In this document: in pieces, positions 29,989-43,518 of the stretch
Layout: the number at the start of each line of letters is the position of its first letter
Position numbering within the stretch: the stretch's first letter is position 1
Source: Acidithiobacillus ferrianus
GTDB taxonomy: Bacteria; Pseudomonadota; Gammaproteobacteria; Acidithiobacillales; Acidithiobacillaceae
NCBI RefSeq assembly: GCF_010378095.1
Contig: NZ_WNJL01000034.1
Location: forward strand, 1 to 64,000
Length of the DNA stretch: 64,000 nt
Direction: 5' to 3'
Position numbers and translations under genes: made by a program
Notes under the pieces: generated by a model
Databases searched by the model: none
What the model saw: the letters and a program-made list of their open reading frames with translations, nothing else
Told to the model about the DNA's origin: nothing

Positions 29989-31695
29989 TCAGAACAGGAA
30001 GTAACGCTGGGCGAGAGGGAGGGAAGAAGCCGGCTCACAGGTCAACAGGACGCCATCTGCACGCACCTGATAGCTTTGCGGATCGACTTCGATTCTGGGG
30101 AGGGCGCTGTTGTTTTTCATATCCTTCTTTCCGATATGGCGGGTGTGGGAGACAGGTAGGACCAGACGCCGTAATCCGAGATCGGCGGCGACGCCATGCT
30201 CCCAGGCATGCCGGGACACGAAAGTCACGGACGTCTGATAACGTGCGGCGCCGAAAGCGGCGAACATGGGGCGGCCATACACCGGCTGGGGGGTCGGAAT
30301 ACTGGCATTGGCATCCCCCATCTGCGCCCAGGCGATCATGCCACCCTTGAGCACCAGATCAGGCTTGACCCCGAAAAAGGCAGGACGCCAGAGCACCAGG
30401 TCGGCAAGTTTGCCCACTTCCACCGAGCCGACCTGATCCGCCACCCCATGGGTGATGGCGGGGTTGATGCCGTACTTGGCGATATAGCGTTTGATCCGGG
30501 TGTTGTCGTGCTCGGGAGGGTCCACCGGCAGACTGCCGCGCTGGACTTTCATTTTATGTGCCGTCTGCCAGGTACGCAGGATGACTTCGCCGACCCGGCC
30601 CATGGCCTGGGAATCGGAAGCCATCATGGAAATAGCGCCCATGTCATGGAGGATATCCTCCGCGGCGATGGTCTCGCGGCGAATGCGCGATTCGGCAAAA
30701 GCCAGGTCCTCCGCAATGGCGGCATCCAGATGGTGACAGACCATCAGCATGTCCAGATGTTCTTCGATGGTGTTCACGGTATAAGGGCGGGTGGGGTTGG
30801 TGGAGGAAGGCAGCACGTTGGCTTCCCCGCAAACTTTGATGATGTCCGGCGCATGGCCGCCCCCGGCGCCCTCAGTATGATAACTGTGGATACTCCGCCC
30901 CTTGAAGGCGCGGATGGTGTTCTCGACGAAACCCGCCTCATTGAGGGTGTCGGTATGGATGGCCACCTGCACGTCATAGACCTCGGCCACTCCAAGGCAA
31001 CAATCGATGGCCGCCGGTGTCGTGCCCCAGTCCTCATGCAATTTGAGGCCGATGGCCCCCGCCTCCACCTGCTCCCGGAGTCCTGCGGGACGGGCGGAGT
31101 TCCCCTTGCCGAGAAAGCCCAGATTCATGGGGAAGGCTTCGGCACTCCGCAGCATCTGCTGTATATACCAAGGACCGGGTGTGCAGGTGGTCGCGTTCGT
31201 ACCCGCCGCGGGACCGGTCCCGCCTCCAAGCATCGTGGTGATCCCGGAAGCCAGCGCGGTCTCGATGAGTTGCGGGCAGATGAAATGAATGTGCGAATCA
31301 ACGCCTCCGGCGGTGAGGATCATCCCCTCGCCGGCGATGATTTCCGTTCCGGGGCCAATGATGATATCCACACCCGCCTGGGTATAAGGGTTGCCCGCTT
31401 TGCCGATGGCGGCGATACGCCCCAGACGAATGCCCACGTCCGCCTTGACGATGCCCCACCAATCGACGATCACCGCATTGGTGATGACGAGGTCCATGGC
31501 GCCCTCGGCCTGGGTGAGGGGAGATTGCCCCATACCATCGCGGACGACCTTGCCGCCGCCGAATTTGACTTCATCTCCGTACCGGGTATGGTCCCGCTCG
31601 ATCTGAATCCAGAGTTCCGTATCGGCCAGGCGAACGCGATCCCCTGTCGTCGGACCGTAATGCTCGGCGTACGCCGTTCTGTCCATTTGTGCCAT
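29989..31695 (-). CDS. ureC: urease alpha subunit (catalytic)
   Basis: A 568-residue amidohydrolase carrying the dinickel centre: His 135 and His 137 (DSHIHFICP), the carbamylated Lys 218 and adjacent KLHEDWG, and the flap Cys-His-His (VCHHLD) near residue 321. It hydrolyses urea to ammonia and carbamate in the cytosol. Length and motifs are those of ordinary bacterial three-subunit ureases; nothing suggests inactivity. Nine bases follow the ureB stop. Confidence 0.98.
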
Positions 31696-36736: not shown

Positions 36737-36772
36737 AAAAAATAAAGGAGATACAATAGTCATTGTATCTCC
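36737..36772 (-). terminator. riboswitch expression-platform terminator
   Basis: Perfect 11-base arms (GGAGATACAAT and ATTGTATCTCC, loop GACT) followed by TTTATTTTTT on the minus strand. The first five bases GGAGA also form the 3' end of the guanidine aptamer, so ligand binding and termination are mutually exclusive: an ON switch. Confidence 0.93.
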
Positions 36773-36861
36773 CGGGTTTTTATCCCTCCGTGGCCCCTTG
36801 CCAGGGGTGAAGCTCTCGGACCGAACGCCATTGTCATCGATGGCTGGAACCCTAGCTTCAC
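36768..36861 (-). ncRNA. guanidine-I (ykkC) riboswitch aptamer
   Basis: The minus strand holds every conserved ykkC block in order: P1 arms GTGAAGC and GCTTCAC, CTAGGGTTCC, hairpin GCCAT...ATGGC, CGGTCCGAGAG, hairpin CCCCT-GGCA-AGGGG, then CACGGAGGGATAAAA and CCCGGGAGA. It binds free guanidinium and lets transcription continue into the transporter/gdmH genes. Seen directly; class assignment is very secure. Confidence 0.97.
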
Positions 36862-36870
36862 TCAGTTTAA

Positions 36871-37735: not shown

Positions 37736-37829
37736 GCCGATCATCTTCCCGTGACACCCCAAGCAGATGAGTTTGAAATATTGCATAAATGTAGTAACGT
37801 ACCTATATTACTTTCTAGGAGGTGTCGCC

Positions 37830-38084
37830 ATGACCATCACGACCCTATCCAGCCGGGAACTTAATCAGGACGTTACTCGTGCCAAGAAAGCGGCCAAGAA
37901 CGGCCCAGTGTTCATCACGGACCGCGGCAAACCAGCACACGTGCTGTTGAGCATCGAGGAATACCAGCGGCTTACTGGCAAACGTAGGAACCTCGTTGAG
38001 GCGCTATCCATGCCAGGCATTGCCGAGATCGAAATTGAGTTCCCTCGTTCACGCGAGCTTCCTCGGCCAGCGGCCTTTGAATGA
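37830..38084 (+). CDS. Phd/YefM-type antitoxin
   Basis: An 84-residue antitoxin: MTITTLSSRELNQDVTRAKKAAKNGPVFITDRGKPAHVLLS is the Phd/YefM DNA-binding fold, and the C-terminal EIEIEFPRS stretch would bind the toxin. Ribosome site AGGAGGTG precedes ATG 37830. Its stop overlaps the toxin ATG (ATGATG/TGA). It should repress the operon and neutralise the PIN toxin. Confidence 0.93.
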   Translation: MTITTLSSRELNQDVTRAKKAAKNGPVFITDRGKPAHVLLSIEEYQRLTGKRRNLVEALSMPGIAEIEIEFPRSRELPRPAAFE

Positions 38085-38509
38085 TGTTCCTGCTCGATAC
38101 CAATGTCATTTCCGAACTGCGCAAGGCCGGCGATGGCAAGGCCGATGCCAATGTCACCGCATGGCTGTCAGGCACGGACGCGACGAGTTTCTACATCTCG
38201 GCCGTGACCATCATGGAACTTGAGCTTGGTATTCTCCGTGTGGAGCGGCGTGACGCCGTTCAAGGGGCGCGGCTGCGCACTTGGATGGATCACCATGTTC
38301 TTCCTGAATTCTCCGAGCGCACGCTGTCGATTGATGAGATGGTAGCACTTCGTTGTGCCCAACTCCATGTGCCCGATCCTTGTCCCGAGCGAGATGCGTA
38401 TATCGCAGCCACCGCACTTGTGCATGGCATGACCGTCGTGACCCGGAATGTAGCCGACTTCGAGCCGACCGGCGTGGCCCTCATCAATCCTTGGGAGGCT
38501 CACCGCTGA
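38081..38509 (+). CDS. VapC/FitB-type PIN-domain toxin
   Basis: A 142-residue PIN-domain ribonuclease. The four acidic positions are in place: LLDTNVISE (Asp 6), MELELG (Glu 47 region), ERDAYIAA (Asp 101 region) and TRNVADF (Asp near 123). It would cleave RNA unless held by the Phd-type antitoxin with which it overlaps. It appears intact. The antitoxin-toxin pair sits in a scarred region with transposase and integrase fragments. Confidence 0.94.
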   Translation: MMFLLDTNVISELRKAGDGKADANVTAWLSGTDATSFYISAVTIMELELGILRVERRDAVQGARLRTWMDHHVLPEFSERTLSIDEMVALRCAQLHVPDPCPERDAYIAATALVHGMTVVTRNVADFEPTGVALINPWEAHR

Positions 38510-39608: not shown

Positions 39609-40268
39609 ATGTTTCCTGAAATGTATAGTGACCCGCAGGCACGATATTCTATCTGGATGGAGAGGAACCCCCAGCCGCTGGGATTCTTAACCTCATTATG
39701 TGAGCATGGTCGAGTTCGTATATCAACTCGAGGACCAGATGGTACTAGCAGTGCTGCAGCAGCAAGACATATTGGTTCCAGCGCAGACGGCGATCCACCG
39801 CTGCTACTTCGGGATAGCTATGAAGACGCGGCGGAAGACGTTGCCGCGCACAGGGCAGATTGTCTTGTTGTTGCCAATGCATATGCGGGAATCAATCGCT
39901 TTTATATCTCAAAGAAACTTGTCTTAGCGACCGCATTTCCTTTCATGACACCGCCCTATGGTGTTGCTATTCGCAGGGATGCAAAGCGCCCTGAAAATAC
40001 TTTCAAACTGGCAACACACCCGGCTCCAAGACATCTGATAAACGATTGGTTTACCGTGCAGCAATTGAGTAACCTGGTTGTTATCGAGGCCAGTTCAACC
40101 AGCACTGCAGCAAAAATGGTGGATGCAGGCGAAGTTTGCGCATGCATCACAACAGAGCCAGCCAGGCGCAAGCATAAGTTGGCTTTTATAACGCAAACAG
40201 TCCGCATTCCAATACTTTGGTCCGTCTTCGTCAGCACGAACCATAAGATCTTTCTTTGGTCTACTTAG
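39609..40268 (+). CDS. BacA-like prephenate decarboxylase homologue
   Basis: A 219-residue protein resembling BacA of bacilysin synthesis, a non-aromatising prephenate decarboxylase of the prephenate-dehydratase fold. Shared features: STRGPDGTSSAAAARHIG (residues 39-56, GPxGTSS), ADCLVVANAYAGINRFYISK, PFMTPPYGVAIRRD, and STSTAAKMVDAGE. It lacks an ACT domain, as BacA does. ATG 39609 was chosen over GTG 39582 because GAGG lies upstream at usual spacing. First gene of a five-gene run; lower GC than flanks. Dehydratase activity is the alternative. Confidence 0.75.
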   Translation: MFPEMYSDPQARYSIWMERNPQPLGFLTSLCEHGRVRISTRGPDGTSSAAAARHIGSSADGDPPLLLRDSYEDAAEDVAAHRADCLVVANAYAGINRFYISKKLVLATAFPFMTPPYGVAIRRDAKRPENTFKLATHPAPRHLINDWFTVQQLSNLVVIEASSTSTAAKMVDAGEVCACITTEPARRKHKLAFITQTVRIPILWSVFVSTNHKIFLWST

Positions 40269-40277
40269 GGAGCTTCT

Positions 40278-40688
40278 ATGAATCGTTGCGTTTTTGTAAT
40301 AGCACAAGACATTCCAGTTGGTTTGGTAGCAAATACGGCGGCGATTCTGTCCATGACTCTGGGGCGGAATTTTCCAAACCTGATTGGACCCGACTTGATA
40401 GATGGGGCTGGTACGTTCCACCGGGGAATTACAACACTCGTTCTCCCCATTCTTAAAGCTACATCAGAAGTCATTTCGACGATTAGATCCAAAGTCCTGT
40501 CGAAAGATTCTGGAGATATATTTGTCGCAGATGTTTCCAATGCCGCACAGGAGACCAAGACCTATGAGGAGTATGCAGCGCGTTTGCAGATAGCATTGGA
40601 GGATGATCTTCGTTACCTGGGGTTATGTCTATACGGTCCAGATTCTGCCGTACGTTCATTAACTGGCAACCTGCCATTGTTTCGGTGA
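40278..40688 (+). CDS. DUF2000-family protein
   Basis: A 136-residue DUF2000 (PF09391) protein: CVFVIAQDIPVGLVANTAAILSMTLG at the start, LVLPILKA in the middle and LCLYGPDSAVRSLTGNLPLFR at the end are the family hallmarks; the fold is like peptidyl-tRNA hydrolase 2. Biochemical role unknown. AGGGAGC precedes ATG 40278, nine bases after the preceding stop. Confidence 0.85.
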   Translation: MNRCVFVIAQDIPVGLVANTAAILSMTLGRNFPNLIGPDLIDGAGTFHRGITTLVLPILKATSEVISTIRSKVLSKDSGDIFVADVSNAAQETKTYEEYAARLQIALEDDLRYLGLCLYGPDSAVRSLTGNLPLFR

Positions 40689-40694
40689 GCACAC

Positions 40695-41471
40695 ATGGGT
40701 ACTATTAGAAATAATGACACCAATATGATCTCTATCACAGACGTAGAGTTCTGCAGGGGAAGTTCCGAATCGCCAAACGAAATGCCTGTATCGAGAGTCA
40801 TTCTTAGTGCATTTTTGATTGACCGCTACCCTGTCACCAACAAAGCCTTCAAGGCGTTCATCAAGGCAGGCGGGTATTCAAATCAGCGATTCTGGATACC
40901 GCAGGGATGGGAATATATCAAAGCTAACAAAATCAACACGCCACTCTATTGGGATGATCCGAAATGGAACGCTCCTGATCATCCTGTAACTGGCGTGTCA
41001 TGGTGGGAGGCCAGTGCTTTTGCCTGCTTTAAGGGGAAATCGTTGCCTTCAGAAGCTCAATGGGAATGCGCTGCGCGCGGCGTTGATGAGCGGCGTTACC
41101 CGTGGGGAAACGCTCCCGCAGACGCGACGCGTGCGAATTTCGCGGTTGAATGTGAACCAGATGCACTGCTTCGTGCATCGACGCCCGTCGATCGCTACGC
41201 AGACGGAGTCTCACCTTATGGCTGTCTCGATATGGCCGGCAACGTAGGTGAGTGGTGTATAGATAACGCTTCGGCGGACTACAGCTGGGATCTAACGCGA
41301 CAAGACCCTCTATATCTCACAGAAGTAGAAGAAGAACACATATTGCGTGGCGGATCTGGACTTCACAGCGACGATTACCTTAGATGCAGTAGCCGCGATT
41401 ACTATCCGCCCGGTGTGCGCGACAATATCGTTGGCTTTCGTTGCGTGATTGCCATCTCAGATGGAAATTAA
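40695..41471 (+). CDS. SUMF1/FGE-fold protein (EgtB/PvdO-like)
   Basis: A 258-residue formylglycine-generating-enzyme-like domain: FLIDRYPVTNKAFKAFIKAGGY, HPVTGVSWWEASAFACFKGKSLPSEAQWECAARG, DMAGNVGEW and GFRCV are canonical. Only one of the two copper-binding Cys of true FGE is kept (YLRCSSRD; the partner position is Asp), and no sulfatase is nearby. The fold is also used by EgtB-type sulfoxide synthases and PvdO-type oxidases, so an oxidative tailoring role is plausible. Six bases after DUF2000. Confidence 0.85.
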   Translation: MGTIRNNDTNMISITDVEFCRGSSESPNEMPVSRVILSAFLIDRYPVTNKAFKAFIKAGGYSNQRFWIPQGWEYIKANKINTPLYWDDPKWNAPDHPVTGVSWWEASAFACFKGKSLPSEAQWECAARGVDERRYPWGNAPADATRANFAVECEPDALLRASTPVDRYADGVSPYGCLDMAGNVGEWCIDNASADYSWDLTRQDPLYLTEVEEEHILRGGSGLHSDDYLRCSSRDYYPPGVRDNIVGFRCVIAISDGN

Positions 41472-41475
41472 TGGT

Positions 41476-42036
41476 ATGACGCTATTAAAGACACCCTATA
41501 TTGAGAAAAAGCCTTCTTCTCTGCGGTACTACCAGGAAGGCGTGCCTAATATAGACGTTGATGCCTGGACGTTAAATATAACTTCATTGACCGGCAACTC
41601 TGTCAAACTCGATCGCTCGGCGCTACTAGCGCTTCCGCAATTCACCCACCACCGCCGTATGGTTTGTGTCTGCAATTGGTCTATCAAGCGGTATTGGCAA
41701 GGCGTTCTGCTTGAAGATGTCCTAACTGAAGCGAGAATCGACACACAGGCCACGGCTAACACGTTTCTAAAACAAACCAGTGTCGGAACCACAGACAAGG
41801 GCGTGTATGAGTCATGGATTAGGTTGGATGAGGCGCTTGAACGTTCAACCATTCTCGCTCATTCCGTGGATGGTGAACCTCTCCCACTGGAGCAAGGATA
41901 CCCTCTGCGTTTGATTGACTTCGGCCTGTATGGTTACAAAAACGTCAAAGGGCTGACGTCAATCGAGGTCGTCGATCAGTGGCAACTCGGACATTGGGAG
42001 CGCATAGCAGGATATGCCCTGGATGGTACTTGTTAA
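41476..42036 (+). CDS. small Mo-cofactor oxidoreductase (sulfite-oxidase/YedY fold)
   Basis: A 186-residue Oxidored_molyb (PF00174) protein. The Mo-ligand Cys lies in RMVCVCNWSIKRYWQGVLLEDVL, where a second Cys replaces the usual Glu; GVYESWIRLDEAL, PLPLEQGYPLRLI and YGYKNVKGLTSIEVVD are typical. No Tat or Sec signal is present, so it is cytosolic, unlike YedY/MsrP. ATG 41476 is preferred over ATG 41461, which overlaps the SUMF1-like gene more deeply. Substrate unknown; genomic context suggests a tailoring redox step. Confidence 0.8.
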   Translation: MTLLKTPYIEKKPSSLRYYQEGVPNIDVDAWTLNITSLTGNSVKLDRSALLALPQFTHHRRMVCVCNWSIKRYWQGVLLEDVLTEARIDTQATANTFLKQTSVGTTDKGVYESWIRLDEALERSTILAHSVDGEPLPLEQGYPLRLIDFGLYGYKNVKGLTSIEVVDQWQLGHWERIAGYALDGTC

Positions 42037-42105
42037 GCCCAAGCGATACTGGGCCGTGGATCTCAAATCTCACCAATTTACTCAAAACAAAGGCGAGGTA
42101 ACAGA

Positions 42106-42738
42106 TTGGTAAGTCAAAAGCTGGCTATGCTTATAGCCCCAGGGTTTTTAATACCTGCCTTGGCTTTTGCATTCGTGACCTCAGTATCGCCAGGCCCAGT
42201 AAATGTGATTTCAGCAACATCAGGGGCCAACTTTGGCTTTTCACGCACCGTCCCTCATGTGTTAGGCGCAACATTTGGTTTCACCTCCCTTCTGTTAGGA
42301 ATGGGGTTTGGACTTCAAGGGGTTATGTTGCGTGCAAGCTGGCTTCATTGGGTTCTCAAAGGCGTAGCCGCCCTTTTTCTAGGATATTTCGCTTTCGTCA
42401 TGATTATGCGTAGATCATCTACCGACATGACCGAAACATTGCCGCGCCCACCACGACTAACTGAGGGGTTCTTGCTTCAGTGGACGAATCCTAAGGCGTG
42501 GATTGTAGCGGCGACAGGTGTTGGTACCTATACCATGCAAGGGCCGATCTACACATCAAGCGTTCTTACATTAAGCGCGATTTTCGCCTTAGTTTGTTTC
42601 CCTTCAATAAGCATCTGGGCAGCAATGGGCCACGGCGCAACCAAGTTCCTCGTCTCTGGAAATGCAATGAGGTGGTTCAATCGCTCAATGGGGGTGTTGC
42701 TTCTTGGATCAGTAATCGCTGTCCTCTTCTTCGGGTGA
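42106..42738 (+). CDS. LysE/RhtB-family amino-acid exporter
   Basis: A 210-residue, six-helix exporter: FVTSVSPGPVNVISATSGANFGF (the LysE PGP motif), LKGVAALFLGYFAF and LLQWTNPKAWIVAATG are diagnostic. It exports amino acids or analogues across the inner membrane. Start TTG 42106 with AGGTAACAG upstream; ATG 42127 is an alternative. Its 3' end overlaps the convergent AraC-type gene by 30 bases. It likely exports the product of the upstream genes. Confidence 0.88.
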   Translation: MVSQKLAMLIAPGFLIPALAFAFVTSVSPGPVNVISATSGANFGFSRTVPHVLGATFGFTSLLLGMGFGLQGVMLRASWLHWVLKGVAALFLGYFAFVMIMRRSSTDMTETLPRPPRLTEGFLLQWTNPKAWIVAATGVGTYTMQGPIYTSSVLTLSAIFALVCFPSISIWAAMGHGATKFLVSGNAMRWFNRSMGVLLLGSVIAVLFFG

Positions 42739-43518
42739 CTGGGGTGCCACCCTAAACAACACGCGCCTGAACTCACCCGGTGTTACGCCAAATAAACGTT
42801 TAAAGCTTCTTGTGAAATGAGGTTGATCTGAAAAATACAATATTGCTGCGATATCCCGGAACGGTGTACCTTGCCTAATTAAGTGCCGGCTTTGAAGAAC
42901 CCGCAATTGCCGTAAGTACTCGTTTGGCGTAAGACCTACCTGTTTCTTAAATAGTCTAATAGCCTGCCAACGCGAGTACTTTGTGGCACTTTCAATATCT
43001 TTCAAGCACAAAGGCTCCTGCCACCTTTCATCTATCAGCCTGCGAAGCGGAAAAACTTCTTTATCCGGCAATGACCTTTTGGGTCTATCGATATACTGAG
43101 AAAATTTATCTAGCCATAGTTTGATCTGCGCTTCGTCATGAAGTTTTTTCGATACGTCGAAAAACTCAATACAATCAGGGGCAACCCAAACACGCTGGCT
43201 GGATGCGAACGTCGCGGTGAGTATTTGTGGGGCATGGACCTTGAGATACATTTCGGATATGTAGTAGACGTCGTAGTTAACGGGCTTTCCTGCTGCGCAA
43301 GCATGCACCTCATATGCAGGGATGATGAAAATGGACCCGGCTGGTGCAATGTGGTCAACCCCGCCCGAATTGAAGTGGCATTCTCCTTCGATAATATGAC
43401 CCACAGACCAAACGTCGTGAAAATGTTGGGATAGACCAGTATAGTTTAATTCAGCGTGCATGATCTCCACTTCGCTGGCAATACCCACTTGCCACATTTG
43501 AATGGTCTTCGCGTCCAT
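42709..43518 (-). CDS. AraC-family regulator
   Basis: A 269-residue regulator with an N-terminal cupin-like effector domain (LSQHFHDVWSVGHIIEGECHF, PAGSIFIIPAYEVHAC) and a C-terminal double helix-turn-helix (residues 170-265; DIAAILYFSDQPHFTRSFKRLFGVTPGEFRR). AAGGAG precedes ATG 43518. AraC genes convergent with LysE exporters are common; it probably senses the exported metabolite. Its promoter lies in 43519-43621. Confidence 0.9.
   Translation of the reverse strand: MDAKTIQMWQVGIASEVEIMHAELNYTGLSQHFHDVWSVGHIIEGECHFNSGGVDHIAPAGSIFIIPAYEVHACAAGKPVNYDVYYISEMYLKVHAPQILTATFASSQRVWVAPDCIEFFDVSKKLHDEAQIKLWLDKFSQYIDRPKRSLPDKEVFPLRRLIDERWQEPLCLKDIESATKYSRWQAIRLFKKQVGLTPNEYLRQLRVLQSRHLIRQGTPFRDIAAILYFSDQPHFTRSFKRLFGVTPGEFRRVLFRVAPQSPEEEDSDY

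Follow-up and report, generated by a model that had tools for sequence, protein, structure and literature searches.

A rare, conserved six-gene operon around a BacA-family protein in Acidithiobacillus ferrianus, probably for the synthesis and export of a small compound

Introduction

Positions 1-64,000 (forward strand) of Acidithiobacillus ferrianus contig NZ_WNJL01000034.1 (assembly GCF_010378095.1), hereafter the window, contain at 39609-43518 six adjoining genes that raise a simple question: do they form a real unit and, if so, what does it make? The first of them encodes a relative of BacA, whose chemistry, according to the accessible part of PMC9147277, is an exit from the shikimate path by prephenate decarboxylation without aromatising. 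From the DNA letters alone, the original prediction had placed here a candidate undescribed biosynthetic locus whose product might be an exported amino-acid-like antibiotic or signal. Our analysis shows that the six-gene set is a conserved operon and a real unit, rare and patchy in its distribution, for which horizontal acquisition and spread is the best explanation. We consider it probable (roughly 0.6 for the scheme as a whole) that the operon turns a precursor of aromatic amino acids into a small compound for export.

A conserved and rare operon

The six genes encode, in this order, a BacA-like protein, a DUF2000 protein, a protein of the formylglycine-generating enzyme (FGE)/EgtB fold, a small molybdopterin (Mo) oxidoreductase, a LysE-family exporter and an AraC-family regulator; reading frames and Pfam matches confirmed all six at the positions first assigned to them. 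Genome-neighbourhood comparison bore out the expectation that the genes co-occur elsewhere, with the same order present in 7 other genomes. A Vibrio halioticoli plasmid carries BacA, DUF2000, FGE, Mo, LysE and AraC as they follow each other in the window, at identities of 30, 38, 50, 45, 39 and 24%, respectively. Because the order is kept in seven other genomes, and at identities of only 24-50% in V. halioticoli, the six genes are more than a chance grouping.

Among 296 genomes of the Vibrio family that were searched, 8 had an FGE match (E <=1e-50), one of them being 100% identical to the V. halioticoli query. Five of the 7 non-query matches (L055-L059, Aliivibrio-type) have the six genes in the window's order, with BacA and FGE interrupted in L059, as if decaying. 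The other two, whose FGE proteins are 40-41% identical, are rearranged: the order in L061 is BacA-FGE-Mo-DUF2000-LysE, accompanied by a divergently oriented Lrp regulator gene, and that in L060, whose contig begins at FGE, is the same from that gene onward. A search of 345 genomes from the order of Acerihabitans returned two matches, one already counted and the other (L063) with the six genes in the window's order, BacA and Mo being interrupted, again as if decaying. A further rearranged version, in Amycolatopsis sp. WAC 01376, comprises genes for DUF2000, an EamA exporter, an aminotransferase, BacA, FGE and Mo; the aminotransferase shares 34% identity with its BacF-like counterpart in a bacilysin-type operon. 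Compilation of all FGE loci read (n = 11, the window and V. halioticoli counted once each) revealed that (i) BacA is adjacent in 10, the eleventh being L060, which is cut by the contig end, (ii) the full six-gene order is found in 8 (the window and the 7 other genomes), and (iii) the AraC gene is co-directional in all 7 other loci with this order and convergent only in the window. As to the identity of the Vibrio-family carriers, the Mo proteins of L057-L059 are 98.6-99% identical to an entry labelled A. fischeri ES114 and that of L056 is 100% identical to one labelled uncultured Aliivibrio, while that of L055, 85% identical to the latter entry and 89% to another one, makes this locus Aliivibrio-type by similarity only.

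Closer to home the operon is scarce. The BacA protein was found in only one of 57 genomes searched, A. ferrianus itself, and in none of the 16 other genomes of the genus; likewise, the Mo subfamily (369 genomes of the class) and the FGE subfamily (398 genomes of the phylum) were each found in A. ferrianus only. The FGE subfamily occurred in 1 of 297 genomes of the Amycolatopsis family (strain WAC 01376 itself), as against 8/296 for the Vibrio family, and a single-protein scan of genome contigs found no relative.

Within the window, the tight plus-strand spacing and the lower G+C (GC) content of the gene set, both noted originally, were confirmed. Nine bases separate the BacA-like and DUF2000 genes and 6 bases the DUF2000 and FGE genes, and FGE and Mo overlap by 11 bases; the GC fraction is 0.47-0.51 for the operon genes versus 0.63 for the copper-ATPase gene on their right and 0.574 for the whole window. 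The exporter gene (42106-42738, plus strand; 210 amino acids; PF01810, E 2e-11) overlaps tail-to-tail with that of the AraC-family regulator, which has a cupin sensor domain (42709-43518; 269 amino acids; PF12833 and PF02311) and proved to be on the minus strand, convergent as predicted. Promoter and terminator scans returned sites about as frequent as in shuffled sequences.

A BacA-family protein distinct from prephenate dehydratases

The BacA-like protein (39609-40268, plus strand; 219 amino acids) was assigned on its sub-threshold PF00800 match, clade, motifs and model. Its ATG at 39609 is also the start of P0001, a protein 95% identical to it. The Pfam prephenate dehydratase family (PDT, PF00800) gave a score of 22 bits against a cut-off of 25.2. 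In a tree built from 13 dehydratase domains together with 17 BacA-like proteins, the two groups split with a support of 100/100. The BacA of a bacilysin-type operon grouped with the BacA-like proteins; its branch is long and drew a warning from the tool. The dehydratase motifs NTTRF and ENS are present in 13/13 dehydratases (as NLTRF in one) and absent at those columns in 17/17 BacA-like proteins, most of which are gapped at the NTTRF columns; the letters TRF and ENS each occur elsewhere in one BacA-like protein. In common with the bacilysin-type BacA, the window's protein has A[NH]AY and W-x-V-F stretches. The best fold matches of its AlphaFold model (pLDDT 83.5) are prephenate dehydratases; below these, the VIA-align 2 matches include further solute-binding-type folds, which we took as a common shared fold. 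By sequence, motif and fold, the protein belongs to the BacA family. A plain prephenate dehydratase (PheA), the outcome against which the original prediction had asked to be checked, is ruled out by the sub-cut-off PDT score, the tree split and the missing NTTRF and ENS motifs.

It is conceivable that the protein has kept the dehydratase fold for another substrate, or for binding only. Likeness to the solved dehydratases is confined to the level of fold, their motifs are lost, the Vibrio-family copies are divergent (HHAP instead of HPAP) and A[NH]AY is itself missing in 3/17 BacA-like proteins (G549, Serpentinimonas, Staphylococcus). Moreover, the solved structures of this fold include the acylase GqqA, so that the fold by itself does not fix the reaction. 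We nevertheless hold this explanation to be improbable, as the window's protein lies inside the clade of the bacilysin-type BacA, and the A[NH]AY and W-x-V-F stretches are common to both.

DUF2000 and the wider BacA-like loci

The second gene (40278-40688, plus strand; 136 amino acids) encodes a member of the DUF2000 family (PF09391, E 3e-38; 131 bits against a cut-off of 25). A profile of 12 of its relatives matches the solved structure of Atu0240 (2gax, E 7e-10), and its fold might hint at a tRNA-protecting hydrolase, a reading that we do not favour.

The association of DUF2000 with BacA was followed in 41 BacA-like loci, made up of 9 of 22 matching plasmid records, 31 loci from one genome-contig pattern scan and the V. 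halioticoli plasmid, which also counts among the 22; the window was not included. In 22 of these loci DUF2000 is found at most 6.5 kb away from BacA, and PhzF occurs in 14; V. halioticoli alone has both, and 6 have neither. Loci were merged by single linkage where their BacA proteins were >=60% identical, which gave 10 groups with one locus counted each; some of the 41 stretches end at contig ends. On this basis one group has both genes, four have DUF2000 only, one PhzF only and four neither (Fisher P = 1), and the idea that DUF2000 and PhzF fill interchangeable isomerase slots is without statistical support.

An aminotransferase stands beside BacA in 38 of the 41 loci. V. halioticoli is one exception; the others are a small Serpentinimonas plasmid (L007), which has the BacA-like gene with genes for DUF6421, an NTF2-like protein and LysE, and a Staphylococcus xylosus plasmid (L010), where genes for an ATP-grasp protein and for a DMT transporter accompany it. 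Among the 41 loci, FGE plus Mo genes near BacA are limited to Amycolatopsis and V. halioticoli.

A separate conserved cluster, comprising Lrp, Dabb, DUF2000, AMP-ligase, branched-chain-type aminotransferase, BacA, carboxymuconolactone-decarboxylase-like, ornithine-cyclodeaminase-like and LysE genes, occurs in L002, L003, L005, L021, L024, L027-L029, L031, L032, L040 and L041, with Pseudomonas, Pantoea, Vibrio, Photobacterium and others as hosts and one copy on a P. aeruginosa plasmid. To our knowledge, neither a description nor a characterised product exists for such clusters.

An FGE-fold protein paired with a small Mo oxidoreductase

The third gene (40695-41471, plus strand) encodes a stand-alone protein of 258 amino acids (PF03781, E 2e-54), whose model (pLDDT 92.5) has EgtB (4x8b) as its nearest solved fold. 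Considering the best 120 of 552 matches, 80 are 46-99% identical, and none of the others exceeds 45% except for one short entry; by sequence, the protein thus falls into a subfamily of its own. The positions of the two C-terminal copper-binding cysteines of formylglycine-generating enzyme align with His224 and Leu229, and a role as such an enzyme was rejected for want of these cysteines. EgtB/OvoA sulfoxide synthases have an N-terminal DinB-type iron-binding domain; this role was rejected too, as PF03781 is the only domain present. One relative is labelled NirV, a lead that we dropped, since the accessible part of PMC10356946 calls the activity of nirV unknown. His224, Cys188, Tyr237, Arg242 and Asp243 are invariant in 39/39 close proteins aligned (37 of the 80, the window's and the Amycolatopsis one), while 7 outer proteins keep them in 1, 3, 0, 3 and 1 cases, respectively. 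By eye, the L061 copy has no His224, so that not all FGE proteins of the operon share this residue.

The Mo oxidoreductase (41461-42036, plus strand; 191 amino acids) belongs to the sulfite-oxidase family (PF00174, E 8e-31), and a cysteine, presumably the Mo ligand, is found at the corresponding position in 27/27 aligned relatives. These relatives are about 212 amino acids long and have an N-terminal motif, KPSSLRYYQ, near the start; labels among Mo relatives at large include Vibrio, Xenorhabdus, Aliivibrio fischeri ES114, Bacillus, Kroppenstedtia, Solimicrobium and others. A feature overlooked in the original prediction is that the window's frame ends early, 25 codons before the end of its nearest relative. 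Three-frame translation against relatives, together with P0190, a 216-amino-acid full-length copy elsewhere that is 99% identical over the first 191 residues, showed that the C-terminal stretch kept in Mo relatives runs on in another frame (42037-42112, plus strand).

Given this truncation the operon may not work in the A. ferrianus genome, and we regard it as a serious, if unlikely, possibility that it is a dying passenger there without function. The absence of the BacA gene from the 16 other genomes of the genus and the interrupted copies in two other carriers (L059 and L063) point the same way. Against this, the reading frames of the remaining five genes are open, near-identical Mo, FGE and BacA proteins of full length are known from elsewhere, and the Mo frame may reflect a sequencing or assembly error.

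FGE and Mo genes appear to be paired beyond these loci as well. Among the matches listed, at least 14 FGE entries could be paired by eye with a Mo entry whose longest contig is of equal length, a sign that both lie on the same contig; in addition, P0040 and P0197, each a single-member entry, are FGE-Mo fusions. The pair might be a redox or sulfur-handling module that stands on its own, a cytosolic MsrP/sulfite oxidase relative with its helper, and that protects or repairs and tailors no metabolite. MsrP and SorA are indeed the named enzymes closest to the Mo protein, and the pair is found in many lineages outside the loci read. It is quite unlikely, however, that this describes the present operon, as BacA adjoins the pair in 10/10 FGE loci with readable surroundings, the eleventh being cut by the contig end.

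Proposed function

According to the scheme that we favour, the BacA-like enzyme would decarboxylate prephenate without aromatising it, giving a keto acid of the dihydro-hydroxyphenylpyruvate type. DUF2000 would act near this step, perhaps on the labile ring diene, and a redox tailoring of the product could fall to the FGE-fold protein acting as a pair with the small Mo enzyme. The amino group would probably come from a housekeeping aminotransferase; the amino-acid-like compound formed in this way would be exported by LysE, and either it or an intermediate may be sensed by the cupin-AraC regulator. The scheme gains from the presence elsewhere in the A. ferrianus genome of a separate, full-scoring prephenate dehydratase gene and of a MoaA-type gene for the Mo cofactor, and from the LysE exporters and Lrp regulators that also occur in the wider BacA/DUF2000 clusters.

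Several points weigh against it. Identity between the BacA-like protein and the BacA of a bacilysin-type operon is just 32%, and with the V. halioticoli copy 30%; to this are added the GqqA fold and the truncated Mo gene mentioned above. The FGE/Mo pair, which has Bacillota and cyanobacterial relatives outside the loci read, may have uses without BacA. While the distinction from a plain dehydratase and the co-occurrence of the genes have held, we infer every catalytic step, the order of the steps and the nature of the product, including the enzyme activity, what the DUF2000, FGE and Mo proteins do and the amino-acid character of the compound. The main fact against an amino-acid product is that the six-gene form has no adjoining aminotransferase. 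Set beside the 38/41 BacA-like loci that have one, this would suit a non-amino compound, such as a keto acid or a cyclohexadienone signal, exported by LysE, whose family includes exporters of compounds other than amino acids. We consider such a product unlikely in view of the aminotransferase in the Amycolatopsis version and of the Lrp/AsnC regulators, which are often amino-acid sensors, in one rearranged version and in the wider clusters.

A bolder extension of the amino-acid scheme, which we put forward as rather doubtful, would be a new prephenate branch in which DUF2000 replaces the diene isomerase BacB (or PhzF), the EgtB-fold protein with its new conserved His site and the minimal cytosolic Mo enzyme form a two-part oxidoreductase, and an amino-acid-like antibiotic or signal is exported, with A. 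fischeri among the makers. We know of no described enzyme pair of this kind.

Relation to known systems

The operon resembles the bacilysin bac operon (BacA-BacG) in its BacA-family first enzyme, dedicated exporter and compactness, and the BacA of the bacilysin-type operon L009 (Streptomyces sp. ADI95-16) is on the same side of the tree as the window's protein. It differs in its DUF2000, FGE-fold and Mo proteins and in that LysE replaces the MFS exporter. The absence of BacB/C/D/F partners, as first reported, was upheld by Pfam among the eight window proteins scanned, none of which is a BacB cupin, BacC/BacG SDR, BacD ligase or BacF-type aminotransferase; a BacB homologue of L009 occurs in 1/41 BacA-like loci, L009 itself. 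With the Dabb/DUF2000/AMP-ligase/ornithine-cyclodeaminase clusters of Pseudomonas, Pantoea, Vibrio and others it has in common the BacA-like gene with DUF2000, LysE and an Lrp regulator; unlike it, these carry a ligase, a branched-chain-type aminotransferase, an ornithine-cyclodeaminase-like protein and Dabb, and no FGE or Mo gene. Taken singly, the FGE-fold protein shares the fold of FGE and EgtB/OvoA/SenA and lacks the FGE copper cysteines and a DinB-type domain. The Mo protein shares PF00174 and the Cys at the Mo-ligand position with the MsrP (YedY)/sulfite oxidase family; it is shorter, has KPSSLRYYQ near its start and is paired with an FGE-fold protein.

Other pathways with prephenate decarboxylases (AerD for aeruginosin/suomilide, SalX for salinosporamide and the Photorhabdus dihydrophenylalanine case) make a similar BacA-type exit. 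These pathways have other tailoring genes, many tied to peptide synthetases, and we know of no FGE/Mo/DUF2000 set in any of them. The accessible parts of PMC9147277 and PMC10157211 describe this non-aromatising branch from the shikimate path, and that of PMC3684760 draws an analogy between the Hil operon and the bac operon, with no BacA, DUF2000, FGE or Mo gene in the part available. In the searched literature, which leaves out most subscription journals, the word DUF2000 does not occur and none of the papers listed deals with the six-gene set, which is weak evidence of novelty.

The new element, in our view, is the set of partners in a putative prephenate decarboxylase pathway. Several bioactive compounds arise by way of prephenate decarboxylases, but the downstream enzymes known from bacilysin are all missing from the operon; it also offers functional clues for three uncharacterised proteins, namely DUF2000, an FGE subfamily without copper site or DinB domain, and a minimal Mo enzyme. 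In the uninterrupted copies L057 and L058 the Mo protein is about 99% identical to the ES114-labelled one, a link to A. fischeri ES114 given by the label of the Mo protein alone; as A. fischeri is a tractable squid symbiont, the function of the operon becomes accessible to genetic and metabolite tests.

Genomic surroundings

To the left of the operon lies a Phd/YefM antitoxin and PIN-domain toxin pair (37767-38509, plus strand), preceded by a Guanidine-I riboswitch (36767-36866, minus strand) upstream of genes on the minus strand. Between 34.5 and 36.7 kb the open frames are short and seem to be interrupted, and a match to the Rfam family 5_ureB_sRNA (88 bits) is found at 31257-31546 (plus strand). 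On the right, a metal efflux (RND) region at about 46.5-55.1 kb is 88% identical to an Acidithiobacillus caldus SM-1 plasmid. When a 24-kb query was compared with plasmid records, the best of 15 matching records was an A. caldus plasmid, at 88% identity over one third of the query.

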